From assembly GCF_007988885.1 (NCBI RefSeq), contig NZ_BJUZ01000001.1:496001-560000 (forward strand): a stretch of 64,000 nucleotides of DNA. Reading direction: 5' to 3'. Both the position numbers and the translations under genes were made by a program. Position 1 is the stretch's first letter, and every line of letters starts with the position of its first letter. Below, piece by piece: positions 3,025 to 60,214 of the stretch. Below the pieces are notes generated by a model. That model was not told the origin of the DNA and ran no database searches. It saw nothing but the letters and a program-made list of their open reading frames with translations. This stretch comes from Gluconobacter wancherniae NBRC 103581. GTDB lineage: Bacteria > Pseudomonadota > Alphaproteobacteria > Acetobacterales > Acetobacteraceae.

Positions 3025-3640
3025 GGCGCAGCGCGTTACGGACGTTTACAATAAGTGCGGCAAGAGCGGCGAGGCGCTCTTTGCCCAGCGTGTTCTCGAT
3101 GTTGGTGCTGGACAGGTGACTTCCGTCTGCAATGAGTAGTCCATCGGGTAGCCGGGTGATGTTGCCGGGACGGTAATCCATGCGTGTTAATGGAATCCCA
3201 CAAGCCTCCAGAACCGCAACGTGCGCGCTGACCCCCAGAACCAGAACAAGCTTGAGATTGTGCATGTTCCGGACTTCGGCACTGAGTTTCGTAGCGCGGA
3301 TTTCGAAGTCTTCAGGCAGGAGAATCGTGTCTGGGGCATCGGACGTCAGCGCATAAGTCAGGCGTGCGCTGATGAGAGCTTCGTCGGGAGCGGCATCGAA
3401 TGTGATGCCTGCGTCCTGGATTATATCCATTTCTGTAAAGTGCGTGGCAAAGGTGCTGTCGAGCCCCACCACGAGCAGCTCTGCAGAAAGAGGCCCTAGA
3501 GATTCAGTTACGACGGGCTCTGTGCCGAGCACAGGTATTTTTTTTTCTAAGACAGAACCGGGACTGATAAAACTGGCCTCCCCGTTTGCATCATCATCTG
3601 TCGTAACTATTGTTTCAGGCGGGGAGGCGAAAGTCATCAA
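3014..3640 (-). CDS. Degenerate uracil-DNA glycosylase superfamily protein
   Basis: The 208-residue protein keeps the skeleton of a family 4/5 uracil-DNA glycosylase but not its active site. The core strand ELLVVGL (54-60) is where active enzymes read like VGLAPG. Here GLDSTFATHF follows and the conserved Gly/Asn/Arg-rich motif is absent. The segment VLVLGVSAHVAVLEACG (132-148) matches the usual ALGxxAHxAVL helix. The HPS-type motif is replaced by GSHLSSTN (173-180). The N-terminal cysteine cluster of iron-sulfur family members is also missing. Its start overlaps the stop of the NYN-domain gene by 4 bases, so the pair is probably one operon. The homology is my reading of motif order, and catalytic loss is an inference. 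Confidence 0.6.
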   Translation of the reverse strand: MMTFASPPETIVTTDDDANGEASFISPGSVLEKKIPVLGTEPVVTESLGPLSAELLVVGLDSTFATHFTEMDIIQDAGITFDAAPDEALISARLTYALTSDAPDTILLPEDFEIRATKLSAEVRNMHNLKLVLVLGVSAHVAVLEACGIPLTRMDYRPGNITRLPDGLLIADGSHLSSTNIENTLGKERLAALAALIVNVRNALRPNG

Positions 3641-4242
3641 TCGTTCATTTCATCGCTGTTCAGGTCTGCTGGATGTCTGACCGGAGCCTGCTGCTGCCGT
3701 GGACGCGCTTCTGACGGGCGACGTGTAAATCTTGGCGCAATCTCGGACAGGTCAACGAACTGGTCTGCCTGACGGCGCAGGTCATCTCCGATCATTGGTG
3801 GCGTTGTCCGGATAGACGAGATCACGGTCACTCGTGTCCCGCGAGACTGTGCGGCTTCGACGGCACGTCGCAGGTCTGAGTCGCCGCTGATGATGACAGC
3901 GTGATCAAGACGGCCAGCCTGCTCCAGAAGATCCACGGTCAATTCGACATCCATGTTCCCCTTCATACGGCGTCTTCCTGAAGGATCCGTAAACTCGCGC
4001 GCACTTTTTATGACCAGATGGTAGCCATTATAGGCCAGCCAATCAGTCAGAGGCTTGAGGGGGGAGTAGTCGTCCGTTTCGGGCATGGCTGCGTAGTAGA
4101 ACGCCCGTTGGAAAAGGGTTTCGCGTTCAAAAAGTCCGCGCAGACTACGGAAATCGACCTCAAAACCGAGGTTTCGTGCCGCGTGATGAAGGCTGGCACC
4201 ATCAATGAAGAGAGCAGTACGTTCGTTGGGGCGAAGGAGCAT
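3637..4242 (-). CDS. NYN/LabA-like PIN-fold nuclease domain protein
   Basis: The 201-residue protein is a NYN (LabA/DUF88) domain protein, a predicted metal-dependent ribonuclease fold. The acidic metal-binding positions are present: D14 in LFIDGAS, D98 and D104 in MDVELTVD, and D121/D123 in ISGDSDL. These are the four hallmarks of an intact NYN active site. A basic, proline-rich tail (RRPSEARPRQQQ) follows the domain and could bind nucleic acid. It is divergent from rpoZ, and its stop overlaps the degenerate glycosylase gene. The actual RNA substrate is not known. Confidence 0.88.
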   Translation of the reverse strand: MLLRPNERTALFIDGASLHHAARNLGFEVDFRSLRGLFERETLFQRAFYYAAMPETDDYSPLKPLTDWLAYNGYHLVIKSAREFTDPSGRRRMKGNMDVELTVDLLEQAGRLDHAVIISGDSDLRRAVEAAQSRGTRVTVISSIRTTPPMIGDDLRRQADQFVDLSEIAPRFTRRPSEARPRQQQAPVRHPADLNSDEMND

Positions 4243-4446
4243 TATGTATCCTGGAAGGTGATAATATATCTTAATGGGTGTACAAAAACAGCCGTCACCG
4301 CCTTTTATGAAATGAGCTAGAGCTCAAATAGGGCAGGGGTATGACGGATATGGCACACAAGATTGCAATCACATAACCTGCATGGTAGTGGGAAGTTTCT
4401 CATTACCCGATCTTGTTATCGAATTTACCCGAAGGGGGCCAGTCGC
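4243..4446. other. Divergent intergenic region between the NYN gene and rpoZ
   Basis: This 204-base gap should hold promoters for both directions. I see a short inverted repeat, GAGCT-AG-AGCTC, at 4314-4325. I do not see a convincing -35/-10 pair for rpoZ. No small gene is supported here. Confidence 0.4.
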
Positions 4447-4842
4447 ATGGCGCGCGTAACCGTCGAAGATTGCATCCAGAAGGTTCCGAACCGTTTTGAA
4501 CTGGTTCTGCTTGCCGCACAGCGTGCTCGTGGCCTTTCGCGCGGTGAAGAGATGACCCTGGACCGCGATAACGACAAGAATCCAGTTGTTGCTCTGCGTG
4601 AGATTGCAGAAGACAAAATCAGCCTCAATGGCCTCCGCGACGGGATTGTTCGTTCTCTGGCCCGTGCTCCGGAACCAGAGCCCGTAGATGAGGAGGTTCT
4701 CGACCTCATCCCGACCGATCAGAACATCTTCGGTCTTCAGGATGTATCTGCTGAAGAAGAACATGCTCACATGGCGGATAACATGTCTGCCGATGATGCT
4801 GCAGCCATTGAAGCCGAGCTTGGCGGGCGTGGTCGTCGCTGA
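4447..4842 (+). CDS. rpoZ: RNA polymerase omega subunit
   Basis: RpoZ is the small assembly subunit of RNA polymerase and part of a ppGpp-binding site in proteobacteria. The start at 4447 gives 131 residues beginning MARVTVEDC, the invariant omega N-terminus. An upstream ATG at 4363 would add 28 unrelated residues and is rejected. The core ([18 protein letters not shown], then [11 protein letters not shown]) is canonical. An acidic tail from about residue 85 is longer than in E. coli, as is common in alphaproteobacteria. AAGGGGG at 4432-4438 is the ribosome site. spoT/rsh follows after 35 bases, a conserved pairing. Confidence 0.96.
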
Positions 4843-4877
4843 TTCACTGTTCTGATTTCTGACGGAGGGGGTGCGTC

Positions 4878-7172
4878 ATGTCCGAAGCACGTCCCGCCGT
4901 CGTTAAGCAGCAAGAGGCTGCAACGGGGGACTTCAAGCCTCCCATCAGCGGCCTCTTACGTCGGATTTCGAGCTATGATCCGACTGCTGACCTCGCCCGT
5001 GTCGAGGCAGCATATGACGTTGCCGCAAACGCGCATAACGGTCAGCGTCGCGATAATGGCGATGCTTACATCACCCACCCTATAGCTGTTGCCAACATCC
5101 TTGCGGGAATGCGCATGGATGTTACGTCCATCATGGTCGGGCTTTTGCATGACACTGTGGAAGACACGGGTGTTTCCTGTGGTGCTCTCAAGACAGATTT
5201 CGGTGAGGACGTTGCCTCTCTCGTTGATGGTGTAACCAAGCTTACACGGCTTGAGCTACAGTCTGACCGTACTAAGCAGGCAGAAAATTTTCGTAAGCTT
5301 GTTCTGGCGATGTCTCGCGATATTCGTGTGCTCATCGTCAAGTTGGCAGACCGTTTGCACAATATGCGGACGCTACATTACGTTCAGCGCCTCGATCGTC
5401 GCCAGCGTATCGCGCGCGAGACGATGGATATCTATGCCCCGCTTGCTGAGCGTATTGGTATGGATCGGGTCAAGACCGAGCTGCAGAATCTGTCATTCGA
5501 ACAGCTTGAGCCCGAAGCAGATGCGACGATCCGTGCGCGGCTAAATTTTCTTCGCGGACAGGGCGCTGATGTTATTGAGCATATTCGCAAGGAGTTGATT
5601 GCTCTTTGTGGAGAGGCTGGCCTTGAGACCGTCGAAGTTACGGGGCGTGAAAAATCCCCATTCTCCATCTGGGAGAAAATGCAGCGGCGCAATGTTGCGT
5701 TCGAGCAGCTTTCCGATCTGATGGCATTCCGTCTCATCGTTCCGAGCCGTGATGCCTGTTATATGGCGCTGGGTGCGATCCATGGCGCGTATCCAATGAT
5801 CGCCGGGCGTTTCAAGGATTACATTTCCACCCCAAAGGCCAATGGTTATCAGAGCCTGCATACGGGTGTGACTCTCCGGCATCCCAGAAACCAGAAGATC
5901 GAAGTGCAGATCCGTACAGCGGGAATGCATGACCTTGCGGAAAACGGCGTAGCCTCGCACTGGGCATATAAGGAAGATGCCACGCCTACAGAGCGCGAGA
6001 CTGCGGCGCTGTCTTCCGCGTTTGGTGCCCAGACGCGGAAATTGCGCTGGGTTCAGGATCTTCTGGAAATTCTGGAAGACAGTCAGGCGCCAGATGAGTT
6101 TCTGGAAAATACGAAACTCGAGCTCTATCAGGATCAGGTTTTCTGCTTCACGCCAAAGGGGCAGCTGATATCGCTGCCGCGTGGTGCGACGCCTGTTGAT
6201 TTTGCATATGCTGTGCACAGTCAGGTAGGCGACACTTGTGTGGGCGCCAAAGTAAATGGTCGGCTGATGCCTCTGCGGCACGAGCTTCAGAATGGCGATC
6301 AGGTAGAGATCATGACCGCGCGTGGCGGTACGCCGTCTCCGTCCTGGGAGCGGTTTGTTGCAACCGGCAAGGCACGTGCCCGCATTCGCCGTTTCATGGC
6401 CGCCCAGCAGCGTCAGGTGAATATCGACAATGGTCGTGCCAGCATTGCCAAGGCGTTCCGTCAGGAAGGTGTGGACGGTTCCGAAAAGGTGCTGGACGGC
6501 GTTCTCAAGGAATTGCGGCAGGCTTCCGTCGAAGATTTGTATGTCGCTGTGGGCAATGGCCAGATCGGCCCGAAAGATGTCGTCAACACTGCGTACCCGG
6601 ATTTGCGACAGACAGTCCGTGCGCCGCGAATGGTTCCTGGCCTGTCGCCGAGAATGGGCCAGTCGCTCAGTTTGGGTATGCCTGCTGGGCGCGCGAATAC
6701 CGATAATTCGGGTGCCATTCTCAAAGGTGTCGGTAGCGGAATAGCCACACATTTTGCTGGATGCTGTCGTCCGCTGCCGGGTGATCCGATTGTTGGGATT
6801 ATCGCGCAAGGGAAGGGGGTAACCATTCACCGCCGTGGCTGTCAGAATCTGTCGAGCTTTGCAGATACGCCTGAGCGTTTCCTTGAAATAGACTGGGATT
6901 ATGAGGCGCTGGGCCGTTCACGTGAGGCTACGCCATATACTGCGCGCCTTTCTGTTGTGGCGGCGAACGAACCCACGGTTCTCGCGACCCTTACAAATGT
7001 GGCATCCAAGCATAATGGCAGTGTCATCAACCTGAAGATCGTGAACCGTCAGCTCGATTTCATGGAGGTTCTGGTTGATCTTGAGGTGCGGGATCTGCGT
7101 CATCTCTCGTCGTTGATTGCCGCGTTCCGGACAGCAGTTGGTGTAATGCAGGTAGAGCGAGCGAAGGGATGA
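4878..7172 (+). CDS. spoT: Bifunctional (p)ppGpp synthetase/hydrolase (RSH)
   Basis: This is the only long RelA/SpoT homologue in the window and would make and degrade (p)ppGpp in the stringent response. The 764 residues run in the standard order. The HD hydrolase domain has H91-D92 in GLLHDTVEDT, intact. The synthetase domain has the FKDYISTPKANGYQSLHT region at about 310-330. The TGS domain begins at FCFTPKGQLISLPRGATP. The zinc-finger-like HFAGCCRPLPGD is followed by a C-terminal ACT domain. Both catalytic halves look functional. An AGGGGG-type ribosome site precedes the ATG, and acpS begins 4 bases after the stop. Confidence 0.96.
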   Translation: MSEARPAVVKQQEAATGDFKPPISGLLRRISSYDPTADLARVEAAYDVAANAHNGQRRDNGDAYITHPIAVANILAGMRMDVTSIMVGLLHDTVEDTGVSCGALKTDFGEDVASLVDGVTKLTRLELQSDRTKQAENFRKLVLAMSRDIRVLIVKLADRLHNMRTLHYVQRLDRRQRIARETMDIYAPLAERIGMDRVKTELQNLSFEQLEPEADATIRARLNFLRGQGADVIEHIRKELIALCGEAGLETVEVTGREKSPFSIWEKMQRRNVAFEQLSDLMAFRLIVPSRDACYMALGAIHGAYPMIAGRFKDYISTPKANGYQSLHTGVTLRHPRNQKIEVQIRTAGMHDLAENGVASHWAYKEDATPTERETAALSSAFGAQTRKLRWVQDLLEILEDSQAPDEFLENTKLELYQDQVFCFTPKGQLISLPRGATPVDFAYAVHSQVGDTCVGAKVNGRLMPLRHELQNGDQVEIMTARGGTPSPSWERFVATGKARARIRRFMAAQQRQVNIDNGRASIAKAFRQEGVDGSEKVLDGVLKELRQASVEDLYVAVGNGQIGPKDVVNTAYPDLRQTVRAPRMVPGLSPRMGQSLSLGMPAGRANTDNSGAILKGVGSGIATHFAGCCRPLPGDPIVGIIAQGKGVTIHRRGCQNLSSFADTPERFLEIDWDYEALGRSREATPYTARLSVVAANEPTVLATLTNVASKHNGSVINLKIVNRQLDFMEVLVDLEVRDLRHLSSLIAAFRTAVGVMQVERAKG

Positions 7173-57065: not shown

Positions 57066-57221
57066 GAAAACTCTCCTGACGACAAGATTGAGCGCCCATT
57101 AACACTCAGTCTGCATGCAGTGTCTTGCCAGAAGCGGTTCCGGGAGGGCAAGAAGGACCCAACTGAACGAAGTTTCGCAAAGGCCCTCTGACTGGGTCGG
57201 ATGCAGAAGGTCGCATATACT

Positions 57222-57902
57222 ATGTCCTCCACCCTCTCGCCCCGCTCGGCTCTAGACGCTGACGCCGTCAAGGCTGCATACCGCCGATGGGCCCGCGTTT
57301 ATGATACCGTTTTTGGCGGCATCTCCGGTTATGGTCGAAAACGGGCTGTTGCCGCTGTCAACGCGCTGCCAGGCGAGCGCGTACTGGAAGTTGGTGTTGG
57401 AACAGGTCTGGCCCTGCCAGCCTACACAACGCAGAAGCGGATTACCGGGATCGATCTCTCCGAGGACATGCTGGAACGCGCCCGTCAGCGCGTGCTGCAA
57501 GAGCGCCTCACGAATGTCGATGATCTTCTTGAAATGGATGCTGAAGCGACAACTTTCGAAGACAATAGCTTCGATATTGCTGTTGCGATGTTTGTTGCGT
57601 CTGTGGTGCCGCATCCTGATCGGCTTTTGGCCGAACTCAAGCGCGTTGTGCGCCCAGGTGGACACATTCTCTTCGTGAACCATTTTCTGGCTACGGGTGG
57701 TGTGCGCCTGACAGTGGAGCGCGGAATGGCACGTGCATCCCGTTCACTGGGATGGCATCCCGATTTTGCTATCGAGTCGCTACTCCCTCCTGAAGATCTG
57801 TGCCGCGCATCACTGACACCAGTTCCTCCCGCAGGGCTTTTTACACTGGTGACATTACCGCAATGCGAGAGTAAGGATGAGGAAGCAGCCCTGGTCGCCT
57901 GA
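57222..57902 (+). CDS. pmtA: Phosphatidylethanolamine N-methyltransferase PmtA-type
   Basis: The start at 57222 gives 226 residues of a class I SAM methyltransferase. The N-terminal AYRRWARVYDTVFGGISGYGR is the PmtA-type lead-in. Motif I is VLEVGVGTGLALPAY and LTGIDLS-like ITGIDLSEDMLERA follows. VVRPGGHILFVNHF is the post-motif. PmtA makes phosphatidylcholine by stepwise methylation, known in acetic acid bacteria and other alphaproteobacteria. A different small-molecule or UbiE-like methyltransferase is the alternative. Confidence 0.82.
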   Translation: MSSTLSPRSALDADAVKAAYRRWARVYDTVFGGISGYGRKRAVAAVNALPGERVLEVGVGTGLALPAYTTQKRITGIDLSEDMLERARQRVLQERLTNVDDLLEMDAEATTFEDNSFDIAVAMFVASVVPHPDRLLAELKRVVRPGGHILFVNHFLATGGVRLTVERGMARASRSLGWHPDFAIESLLPPEDLCRASLTPVPPAGLFTLVTLPQCESKDEEAALVA

Positions 57903-57984: not shown

Positions 57985-59160
57985 ATGACTTTTCAGGCTT
58001 TCGATACTTTCCCCAATACGACCAGTCGGCGTCTTGGAACTTCGTTCATTCTTCTGGCACTTTTCGCCGGGGTTCTGGGCGGATCGATGGCCCTTCCAGT
58101 CTTTCACATCCACCCGACGGCAGGGCAGTCGCTCTGCCACGGTGTGTTGATGACCTTCTTTGTAATTTGTCCGGCAGCGCTTGGCGGTTTTGGACAGTGG
58201 CTTTTACCTAAGGCACTGGGAACCAATAAGACCTCTTTGCCTGCCGCATCGCTTGCGGGCTTTGGCTTCCTTGCTTGCGGAGTCGTGCTGCTGCCCATCT
58301 TCCCGGCCGTAGGGCTTTTGATGTGGGCGTTGGGCGTGCTCTCGGTTGCAGTTGATATCGTTGCAACCATCCTCGAAGAGCGCCGAATTTCCTTCCGTGA
58401 TGCTTCCCCTTTGGTATGGTCGTTCCTTGCAACTGCATCTGGTGCAGTCGTTACCGCAGCCGTTCTGGCGGCTCTGGTGACGAAGGGCTTGTATCGGGAT
58501 GATGTGGTTGGCCTGAATGACCGTCTGGTGACGCTGCTGCATCTCCCGGAAACGGCGTTGATGCTCACCCCAGCTTTGGGGCTCGTCGCGGCTATTCTCC
58601 TCCGCCGTCCTGTCGCAGGGAGCTTGACCTGGCGGGTAGCACCCTATGTTTTTGGGACGATTGGTCTTGTTGGGCCACTTTTTTGGGCAGATAGCCTTTT
58701 TGGTGGGACCCCCAATTCCATGCTCCCCGCGATTGCCCTGCTGAGCCAGGCCCTGCCATGTGCCATGCTTCTTGCGGCGCTCTGCCGGGATATGTGGGTG
58801 GAGCGCGTTGAGCTTGATGGCGTTACGCCCTGGGCCTTTGGTGCTCTCGCGCTTTTTGCCTCGGGTTGGGCCTCAATGCTGTTTCCAGGGCAGGATATCG
58901 CTCACTCAGCCGCTGCCTTTGGAAGCATCATGGCGCTCTGTGGAGGCTTCTATGCCTGGCTTTCTTATCAATTGCCGAGCGTGTCGTTGCCTCGTGTTGG
59001 GAAGCTTCATGCGCTTCTGACGCTGGCTGGAAGCATCTGCTCTGTAGTGCCAGCACTCGCTGAAGTCGGCGGCCTTATCATGGGTCTGAGCCTGATCGGT
59101 TTCGCTGTACTCGGCGTGACGTTGATGAAAGAAGCTGGCCGCGTGCGGGTGTCGTCATGA
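57985..59160 (+). CDS. Vestigial cytochrome c oxidase subunit I-like protein
   Basis: The 391-residue membrane protein aligns along haem-copper oxidase subunit I but is shorter (usually 520-560) and lacks the binuclear centre. CHGVLMTFF and ALGGFGQWLLP (51-75) match the second helix, with low-spin haem ligand H52. The segment HLPETALMLTPALGL (186-200) replaces HPEVY, so the CuB histidine is L187 and the cross-linked tyrosine is A191. FWADSLF (233-239) replaces WAHHM, so the two other CuB histidines are D236 and S237. In DIAHSAAAFG the haem a3 histidine position is I305, while H307 keeps the low-spin haem a ligand. It overlaps ctaB in ATGA. Confidence 0.8.
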   Translation: MTFQAFDTFPNTTSRRLGTSFILLALFAGVLGGSMALPVFHIHPTAGQSLCHGVLMTFFVICPAALGGFGQWLLPKALGTNKTSLPAASLAGFGFLACGVVLLPIFPAVGLLMWALGVLSVAVDIVATILEERRISFRDASPLVWSFLATASGAVVTAAVLAALVTKGLYRDDVVGLNDRLVTLLHLPETALMLTPALGLVAAILLRRPVAGSLTWRVAPYVFGTIGLVGPLFWADSLFGGTPNSMLPAIALLSQALPCAMLLAALCRDMWVERVELDGVTPWAFGALALFASGWASMLFPGQDIAHSAAAFGSIMALCGGFYAWLSYQLPSVSLPRVGKLHALLTLAGSICSVVPALAEVGGLIMGLSLIGFAVLGVTLMKEAGRVRVSS

Positions 59161-60104
59161 GCGATACAGCTCCTCTGTCTCCTACGGGTATCTTCTCCAT
59201 TGAAGGGCAGAATGGAGATGCTGGCATCAAAGATTGGCTGTCGCTGCTGAAGCCTCGGGTTATTTCGCTGGTCGTGTTTACGGGCGCTGCCGGGATGGCC
59301 GTGGCTCCGCGCTGGCCATCAATTCCCGTTGGTCTGGTAACGATCCTCTGCATCTGTTTTGGTGCGGGCGCCGCCGGTGCGATCAACATGTGGTATGACC
59401 GCGATATCGACGCGATCATGCGACGTACTAGTATTCGTCCCATTCCAGATGGGCGCATTCGCGAGCAGGGAGTGCTGGTATACGGCGTCGTGCTCTCGGT
59501 GCTGTCCGTTATTGTGCTGTGGCTGGCAACTAACGTTCTCGCTGCCGGGATTCTGGCGTTTTCAATTTTCTTCTACAGCGTCATCTACACGATGTGGCTC
59601 AAGCGCAGCACGCCGCAGAACATCGTGATTGGTGGTGCTGCGGGCGCATTTCCGCCAATGATTGGCTGGGCTGCATCCATGAATTCCCTCAGTGTGCTGC
59701 CGATTGCCATGTTCGCAATCGTCTTTTTGTGGACGCCTCCACATTTCTGGTCCTTGTCGCTGTATGCCTGCAAGGACTACGGAAAAGCAGGCATTCCGAT
59801 GCTTCCGGTGGTGAAAGGTGCACGGCATACACGCTGGCAGATCCTGATCTATACTTTTATTCTGACGGCGGTTTCCCTGCTTCCGAGCTTCATGAAAGAG
59901 TGTGGCTGGACTTATACGGTCGTTACCAGCCTTCTCGATCTGGGCTTCATTCTGTGTGCTGTGCGTGTTCTGATGGACAAGCAGGATGAGGGGGGCGTGA
60001 GCCTTACAGCAGACAAGCCCGCGCGTTTCGCATTCCGCTATTCGCTGGCTTATCTCTTCTTACTGTTCTGTGGACTTCTTGTAGACCGGGTGCTGCTCGC
60101 ATGA
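59157..60104 (+). CDS. ctaB: Protoheme IX farnesyltransferase (haem O synthase)
   Basis: CtaB makes haem O from protohaem and farnesyl diphosphate, needed for bo3-type ubiquinol oxidases even where cytochrome c oxidase is lost. The 315-residue UbiA-family membrane protein has NMWYDRDIDAIMRRTSIRP with the aspartate motif. It also has the second motif DYGKAGIPMLPVVKG and about nine transmembrane segments. It lies between the oxidase relic and coxF in a shrunken cta operon. Confidence 0.96.
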   Translation: MSDTAPLSPTGIFSIEGQNGDAGIKDWLSLLKPRVISLVVFTGAAGMAVAPRWPSIPVGLVTILCICFGAGAAGAINMWYDRDIDAIMRRTSIRPIPDGRIREQGVLVYGVVLSVLSVIVLWLATNVLAAGILAFSIFFYSVIYTMWLKRSTPQNIVIGGAAGAFPPMIGWAASMNSLSVLPIAMFAIVFLWTPPHFWSLSLYACKDYGKAGIPMLPVVKGARHTRWQILIYTFILTAVSLLPSFMKECGWTYTVVTSLLDLGFILCAVRVLMDKQDEGGVSLTADKPARFAFRYSLAYLFLLFCGLLVDRVLLA

Positions 60105-60214
60105 CCGACATTGATCTGACTGCACGTCGGCGGCAGAGCCGTCTGGTTGGAATTGCAGGAGGGGTCATAGCCCTCACTGCAATTCTTTATGTTGTTGCTT
60201 TGTACAGGCTTTAA
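60101..60214 (+). CDS. CoxF-like small membrane protein
   Basis: This 37-residue frame (ATG 60101, overlapping the ctaB stop) encodes a basic start (TARRRQSRLVG) and one transmembrane segment ending VVALYRL. Small proteins of this shape, called CoxF, sit between ctaB and ctaG in alphaproteobacterial oxidase operons. No ctaG or subunit III gene follows here; a convergent Tim44-domain gene comes next, overlapping by 4 bases. Confidence 0.65.
   Translation: MTDIDLTARRRQSRLVGIAGGVIALTAILYVVALYRL

Follow-up and report, generated by a model that had tools for sequence, protein, structure and literature searches.

A former oxidase subunit I beside ctaB in acetic acid bacteria retains its low-spin haem histidines and may act as a haem-holding partner of heme O synthase

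The gene immediately upstream of ctaB in Gluconobacter wancherniae NBRC 103581 descends, judged from its sequence, from ctaD, the gene for subunit I of cytochrome c oxidase. The encoded protein, termed the relic here, has lost the CuB/haem a3 site and keeps both histidines at the axial ligand positions of the low-spin haem, and relics with these histidines adjoin ctaB at nearly all Acetobacteraceae loci inspected. This suggests that the relic has taken on a new role, that of a haem-holding helper, and is not on its way to being lost. The best explanation, to which we assign a probability of about 0.5, is that it holds haem as a partner of CtaB. The window, meaning the whole stretch of 64,000 nucleotides that was analysed (contig NZ_BJUZ01000001.1, positions 496,001 to 560,000), contains the following features.

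57201..57902, + strand: SAM methyltransferase, PmtA-like but below the cut-off of that family; the conserved upstream neighbour
57985..59160, + strand: the relic, a non-catalytic, CtaD-derived subunit I of 391 aa with about 12 transmembrane helices
58138..58140, + strand: codon of H52, low-spin haem axial ligand position, helix II
58543..58557, + strand: LPETA in place of the HPEVY of active oxidases; a CuB histidine and the tyrosine are gone
58684..58695, + strand: WADS in place of the WAHH of active oxidases; two CuB histidines are gone
58897..58899, + strand: codon of I305, the site of the high-spin haem histidine in active oxidases
58903..58905, + strand: codon of H307, low-spin haem axial ligand position, helix X
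59157..60104, + strand: ctaB, heme O synthase
60101..60214, + strand: 37-aa one-helix ORF after ctaB, resembling the small ORF downstream of ctaB in genuine ctaD operons

The relic belongs to the COX1 sequence family (PF00115), and both its sequence and its predicted fold bear out the original assignment to subunit I. H52 and H307 occupy the positions of the axial histidine pair of the low-spin haem. In the protein of the window the three CuB histidines are replaced by L187, D236 and S237, the high-spin haem histidine by I305, and the active-site tyrosine and K-channel lysine by A191 and L262, which confirms the originally noted loss of the CuB/haem a3 site with retention of the low-spin ligands. 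The relic scored 40.8 bits against the CtaD equivalog TIGR02891, as compared to a curated score of 670.75, and therefore falls outside it.

A family-wide search, in which matches were listed down to about E 3e-8 and 24 genomes without a match were not itemised, matched the relic in 353 of 397 Acetobacteraceae genomes. Among the matches listed, about 100 were full-length; many others spanned only residues 11–110 or so, as genuine oxidases do. Further diverged relics may exist beyond E 3e-8, as genome G056 showed. In total, 103 loci were inspected (L003–L102, L180, L197 and L198). Alignment counts of 100 or 101 exclude L197 (G247) and L198 (G009, truncated by the contig end), and the frameshifted L067 was omitted from trees and some counts. 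H52 was present at 102 of the 103 loci, the sole exception being L067, where the histidine was found in another frame, and H307 at 102/102 (L198 ends with its contig). A second set, drawn from named genomes, comprised 35 loci, of which 34 are relics (from Gluconobacter, Neokomagataea, Saccharibacter, Bombella and unclassified Acetobacteraceae), L139 having been excluded as a weak, short match from an Acidobacteria assembly. Both histidines were found in 34/34 of these relics, and ctaB lay within the fetched stretch in 34/34; the two sets probably overlap in species. Random loss of the histidines was thus not seen in either set, and frameshifts were rare: one was found among the 103 loci, with no break in the other 102. 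The frameshifted copy, L067 (G327, 3516–4870, + strand), comes from an 85%-complete assembly, and its frameshift may be a sequencing error or a first step of loss.

To assess which parts of the active site were retained, 101 relics were aligned with 16 genuine CtaD of the family, four CtaD-type proteins from relic-bearing genomes and three CyoB. The 23 active oxidases were the reference for invariance and share 98 invariant columns; all three CyoB score above the cut-off of TIGR02843, as does the single CtaD-type protein that was checked above that of TIGR02891. Of the 98 columns, relics preserve four best: W145, W234 and H307 (101/101 each) and H52 (100/101). They are followed by G32 (99/101) and by P75 and W325 (98/101 each), after which retention declines. 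At the CuB positions, His187 was found in 0/101 relics, His236 in 46 and His237 in 10. Tyr191 and Lys262 occur in no relic (0/101 each) and the high-spin (a3) His305 in two of the 101. The arginine pair and loop tryptophan, which presumably sit at the haem propionates in active oxidases, are deleted in 101/101 relics, so the haem pocket has been altered; the tyrosine close to the arginine pair is a gap in 100 relics and a histidine in one. The distance from H52 to H307 is 250–279 residues in 100 relics as compared to 316–317 in the 16 CtaD, and some of the missing loops lie, we assume, on the electron-entry side. A new tryptophan, W114, is present in 94 of 100 relics and in 0/23 active oxidases. 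Position 236 (58690–58692), a former CuB ligand, is polar or charged in 98/100 relics, mostly H, D, K or R, and 27/100 have a His236-Asp237-Asp305 set; this pattern is a further conserved trait of what was once the active site.

A tree was built from 100 relics (without L067) and the 23 active oxidases, and in it the relics formed a single clade (support 0.969) whose sister group is the family's 16 CtaD. The subtree of the relics amounts to 44.9 substitutions per site as compared to 1.7 for the CtaD clade. Site rates (IQ-TREE), in a relic tree of 46.6 substitutions per site, ranked H52 and H307 second and third from slowest among 388 sites; the former ligand positions ranked 272 (position 187), 277 (237), 291 (305) and 160 (236). 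The methyltransferase was used as the control gene for divergence and dN/dS. Among 43 close pairs from 40 loci, with dS between 0.05 and 0.5 for both relic and ctaB, the relic had a median dN/dS of 0.116, as compared to 0.051 (ctaB) and 0.042 (methyltransferase). A wider comparison (1198 of 4950 pairs, dS 0.05–1.5) gave a median of 0.63 for the relic, which at face value opposes strong purifying selection; this value was set aside because synonymous sites are near saturation. Mean pairwise amino acid identity over the 4950 pairs of 100 loci was 0.32 for the relic, 0.70 for ctaB and 0.75 for the methyltransferase. Together, the dN/dS values, site rates and identities indicate that the relic evolves fast yet under constraint. 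Its divergence tracked that of ctaB given the methyltransferase (partial r 0.55) more closely than that of the methyltransferase given ctaB (partial r 0.11), although the pairs are non-independent and neither coefficient carries a valid p-value. The CtaB linked to relics (n=101) likewise form one clade (support 0.73), to which the CtaB of locus L170 is nearest (support 0.61).

ctaB adjoins the relic at 102/102 loci showing that side, and methyltransferase, relic and ctaB are co-directional in 100/100 loci (L003–L102), with the same order in L180 and L197. The open frame of the methyltransferase lies at most 202 bases from that of the relic (100 loci), a gap too small for ctaC, which is gone from the relic locus. 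In the window, the first possible ctaB start overlaps the relic stop by 4 bases (ATGA), and this ctaB is the only match above the TIGR01473 cut-off in its genome. The nearest ctaB start shows the same 4-base overlap in 59 of 100 loci and is no more than 60 bases off in 100/100; these starts were picked by nearness to the relic stop, which favours a coupling reading. A small one-helix ORF lies 3' of ctaB in 99/100 relic loci and in 15/15 genuine ctaD-ctaB loci, counts made without a shuffled control. We take the 37-aa ORF of the window to be CtaF/CoxF-like by name; it matched no Pfam family at E 0.01. The intact relative L170 has the order methyltransferase, ctaC, ctaD, ctaB, small ORF, ctaE, which is likely ancestral.

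The genome of the window has one other COX1-family gene, CyoB, and one COX2-family gene, adjoining CyoB; a search of this genome for CtaA found none. A search for CtaD and CtaA covered 80 of the 99 other genomes with a relic, and each of these 80 has at least one oxidase match above 500 bits. CtaA was found in 42 of the 80 and was absent from 38. Haem A was considered as the ligand of the relic and is unlikely where tested, because CtaA is absent from the genome of the window and from those 38. A CtaD-model match of at least 640 bits was obtained in 15/80 genomes, three of them above the cut-off. These second, full-length CtaD-type matches lie elsewhere in the genome (genera g43, g56, g60 and g73), so that retention of the relic extends to genomes in which a c-type oxidase may be present.

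Twenty genomes without a match were checked, and 11 have a clear ctaB. One of these, G056, carries a diverged relic with both histidines. Of the nine others, G002 and G116 have weak ctaB matches only, and G029, G034, G066, G070, G076, G081 and G155 have none. The search for oxidases covered G029, G116, G066, G070, G034, G056, G031, G001, G053, G077 and G007. Four small genomes without a clear ctaB (G029, G066, G070 and G116) have no COX1-family gene or one divergent gene (139–145 bits); that of G029 has a NorB-type domain and is therefore not a bo3 oxidase. These four relic-less genomes thus lack a bo3-like oxidase as well as a clear ctaB. In G001 (L183) and G053 (L184) the methyltransferase adjoins ctaB, with no relic found between them, and both genomes hold other oxidases; these lineages lend themselves to comparison of CtaB function with and without a relic. 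Fragments next to ctaB were seen at contig ends in G004, G064, G110 and G145. When 385 genomes from the class were searched with a threshold of E 1e-11, which misses diverged relics like the one in G056 and so makes the search non-exhaustive, the lone match outside the family was a near-normal CtaD (L196 of G440, 3869–5299, + strand) from another alphaproteobacterial family. This CtaD has WGQH for WAHH, one CuB histidine having become glutamine, and, judged by eye, is missing the usual arginine-pair motif.

Work by Matsutani in 2014 is said to have found ctaD function absent through accumulated mutations, and A. pasteurianus CtaB and CtaA reportedly worked on expression in E. coli. Other papers describe A. 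pasteurianus CtaB and CtaA as functional (PMC6915089, citing Matsutani 2014), ctaD beside ctaB as conserved in A. pasteurianus (PMC5158111), and acetic acid bacteria as being without an aa3 oxidase (PMC4007555). An Acetobacter 'deranged COX1-like protein' clustered with ctaB, said to lack every conserved metal-cofactor-binding residue, is proposed to be a structural stabiliser of CtaB by Degli Esposti 2023 (PMC10715153). The relic shares the COX1-like character and the position by ctaB of that cluster; the loss of all ligands described in that paper does not apply to it. No report of its retained low-spin ligands was found in the open-access literature searched. In yeast, multimerisation of Cox10 (heme O synthase) appears to rely on freshly synthesised Cox1 (PMC7140478). 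Assembly intermediates point to an order in which the low-spin haem enters subunit I before a3, and CuB comes last (PMC9145763).

A scenario consistent with these data can be proposed. In an ancestor of the acetic acid bacteria, other oxidase genes would have been lost from the locus while ctaD stayed by ctaB. The gene may then have become a dedicated non-oxidase, losing several loops along with the O2-reducing centre and the K-channel lysine and retaining the 12-helix scaffold with the bis-His low-spin haem site. This site would hold haem B or haem O, with the relic as a partner of CtaB. The relic could feed haem B to CtaB, take up haem O before its transfer to the bo3 ubiquinol oxidase, or give CtaB the 'new subunit I' signal with which it evolved. 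A subunit I cut back to the first assembly step, adjacent to ctaB and diverging with it, fits a haem feeder, receiver or signal for CtaB. Four relic-less genomes that also lack a clear ctaB and a bo3-like oxidase count in favour of this reading. Haem binding by the relic is inferred with high probability, and, if it occurs, cooperation with CtaB is somewhat favoured. The fuller proposal, put forward tentatively, is that subunit I has turned clade-wide into a single-haem, non-catalytic 'haem dock' working with heme O synthase, a protein that may be frozen at the low-spin-haem stage of assembly and load or receive haem for bo3. However, the deletion of the arginine pair and loop tryptophan from the haem pocket counts against this reading. 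CtaB also exists without a relic (G001, G053 and the 11 of 20 no-match genomes with ctaB, although one of the 11, G056, does hold a diverged relic), and the functional A. pasteurianus CtaB and CtaA described in PMC6915089 imply that the relic may be dispensable for catalysis. The relic is also retained in the 15/80 genomes with a second CtaD-type match.

Could the relic simply be non-functional and decaying? Its fast divergence (mean identity 0.32 as compared to 0.70 for ctaB), the median dN/dS of 0.63 over the 1198 wider, nearly saturated pairs and the one frameshifted copy would agree with this. Decay does not, however, explain a close-pair dN/dS of about 0.12, unbroken frames at 102/103 loci, ligands that survive some 45 substitutions per site, or a W114 that was gained and then conserved in 94/100 relics. 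Pseudogene decay was rejected on the close-pair dN/dS, the open frames and the invariant sites; it is largely refuted for the family, where we give it next to no weight, and an individual lineage may yet be in decay. The original expectation of selection instead of simple decay was supported on four counts, namely histidine retention, rare frameshifts, dN/dS well below 1 in close pairs and the subunit I assignment. Retention of the gene only as a translated leader, coupling ribosomes to ctaB with no need for the protein product, would agree with the 4-base overlap in 59/100 loci, bearing in mind that the start was chosen by nearness. Coupling needs neither residue-specific conservation nor a whole fold, and the spacing differs at 41/100 loci; this reading is highly improbable.

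Two functional alternatives remain to be weighed. Bis-His low-spin haem sites carry electrons in oxidases, and the relic could be an electron-transfer cytochrome b unrelated to CtaB, its haem linking quinol or periplasmic donors to another partner and the adjacency of ctaB being merely inherited. The invariance of W145 and W234, the genomes with ctaB that are relic-less, and retention of the relic in the 15/80 genomes with a second CtaD-type match are all compatible with such a role. The shortened H52–H307 span and the missing loops, including those presumed to be on the electron-entry side, are less so, and a cytochrome unrelated to CtaB would not explain adjacency at 102/102 loci or divergence that parallels ctaB. 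We regard this alternative as unlikely. The relic could also be a haem-free, purely structural stabiliser of CtaB, as already proposed in print (PMC10715153), which agrees with the synteny, the short gap to ctaB and the correlated divergence. Invariant histidines at both low-spin ligand columns are not predicted by a haem-free protein, however, and the premise of a complete loss of metal ligands is contradicted, making a purely structural role rather improbable. A haem-holding partner of CtaB remains the best explanation of the relic.

Little is understood of the route by which haem arrives at heme O synthase, or of the way in which subunit I acquires its metal centres (PMC7140478, PMC9145763). 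A protein with only the first-filled haem site, beside CtaB, would separate the assembly role of subunit I from catalysis, and this separation would become testable in a tractable genus. The retained ligands also correct the statement of total metal-ligand loss in PMC10715153. More generally, 'deranged' respiratory genes may have been repurposed, and this serves as a warning.

Surf1 and Coa2, factors in oxidase haem delivery and assembly, are not known to derive from subunit I; their likeness to the relic lies in a proposed role near haem insertion or the activity of CtaB/Cox10. The 'deranged COX1-like protein' is evidently the same gene, being COX1-like and beside ctaB, but in contrast to its description in PMC10715153, the relic retains the low-spin ligands (H52 at 102/103 loci, H307 at 102/102). 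CyoB of the bo3 ubiquinol oxidase belongs to the same superfamily and probably uses the haem O that CtaB makes, but the three CyoB keep all active-site ligands, and the relics group with CtaD and not with CyoB. The closest comparison is to CtaD of the Acetobacteraceae aa3 oxidase, sister in the tree, with which the relic shares the fold, the helix order, the low-spin histidine pair and the operon place by ctaB and the small one-helix ORF. Unlike this CtaD, the relic has shorter loops and is without the CuB set, the high-spin haem histidine, the active-site tyrosine and the K-channel lysine, and, unlike the CtaD operon, its locus leaves no space for ctaC between methyltransferase and relic.
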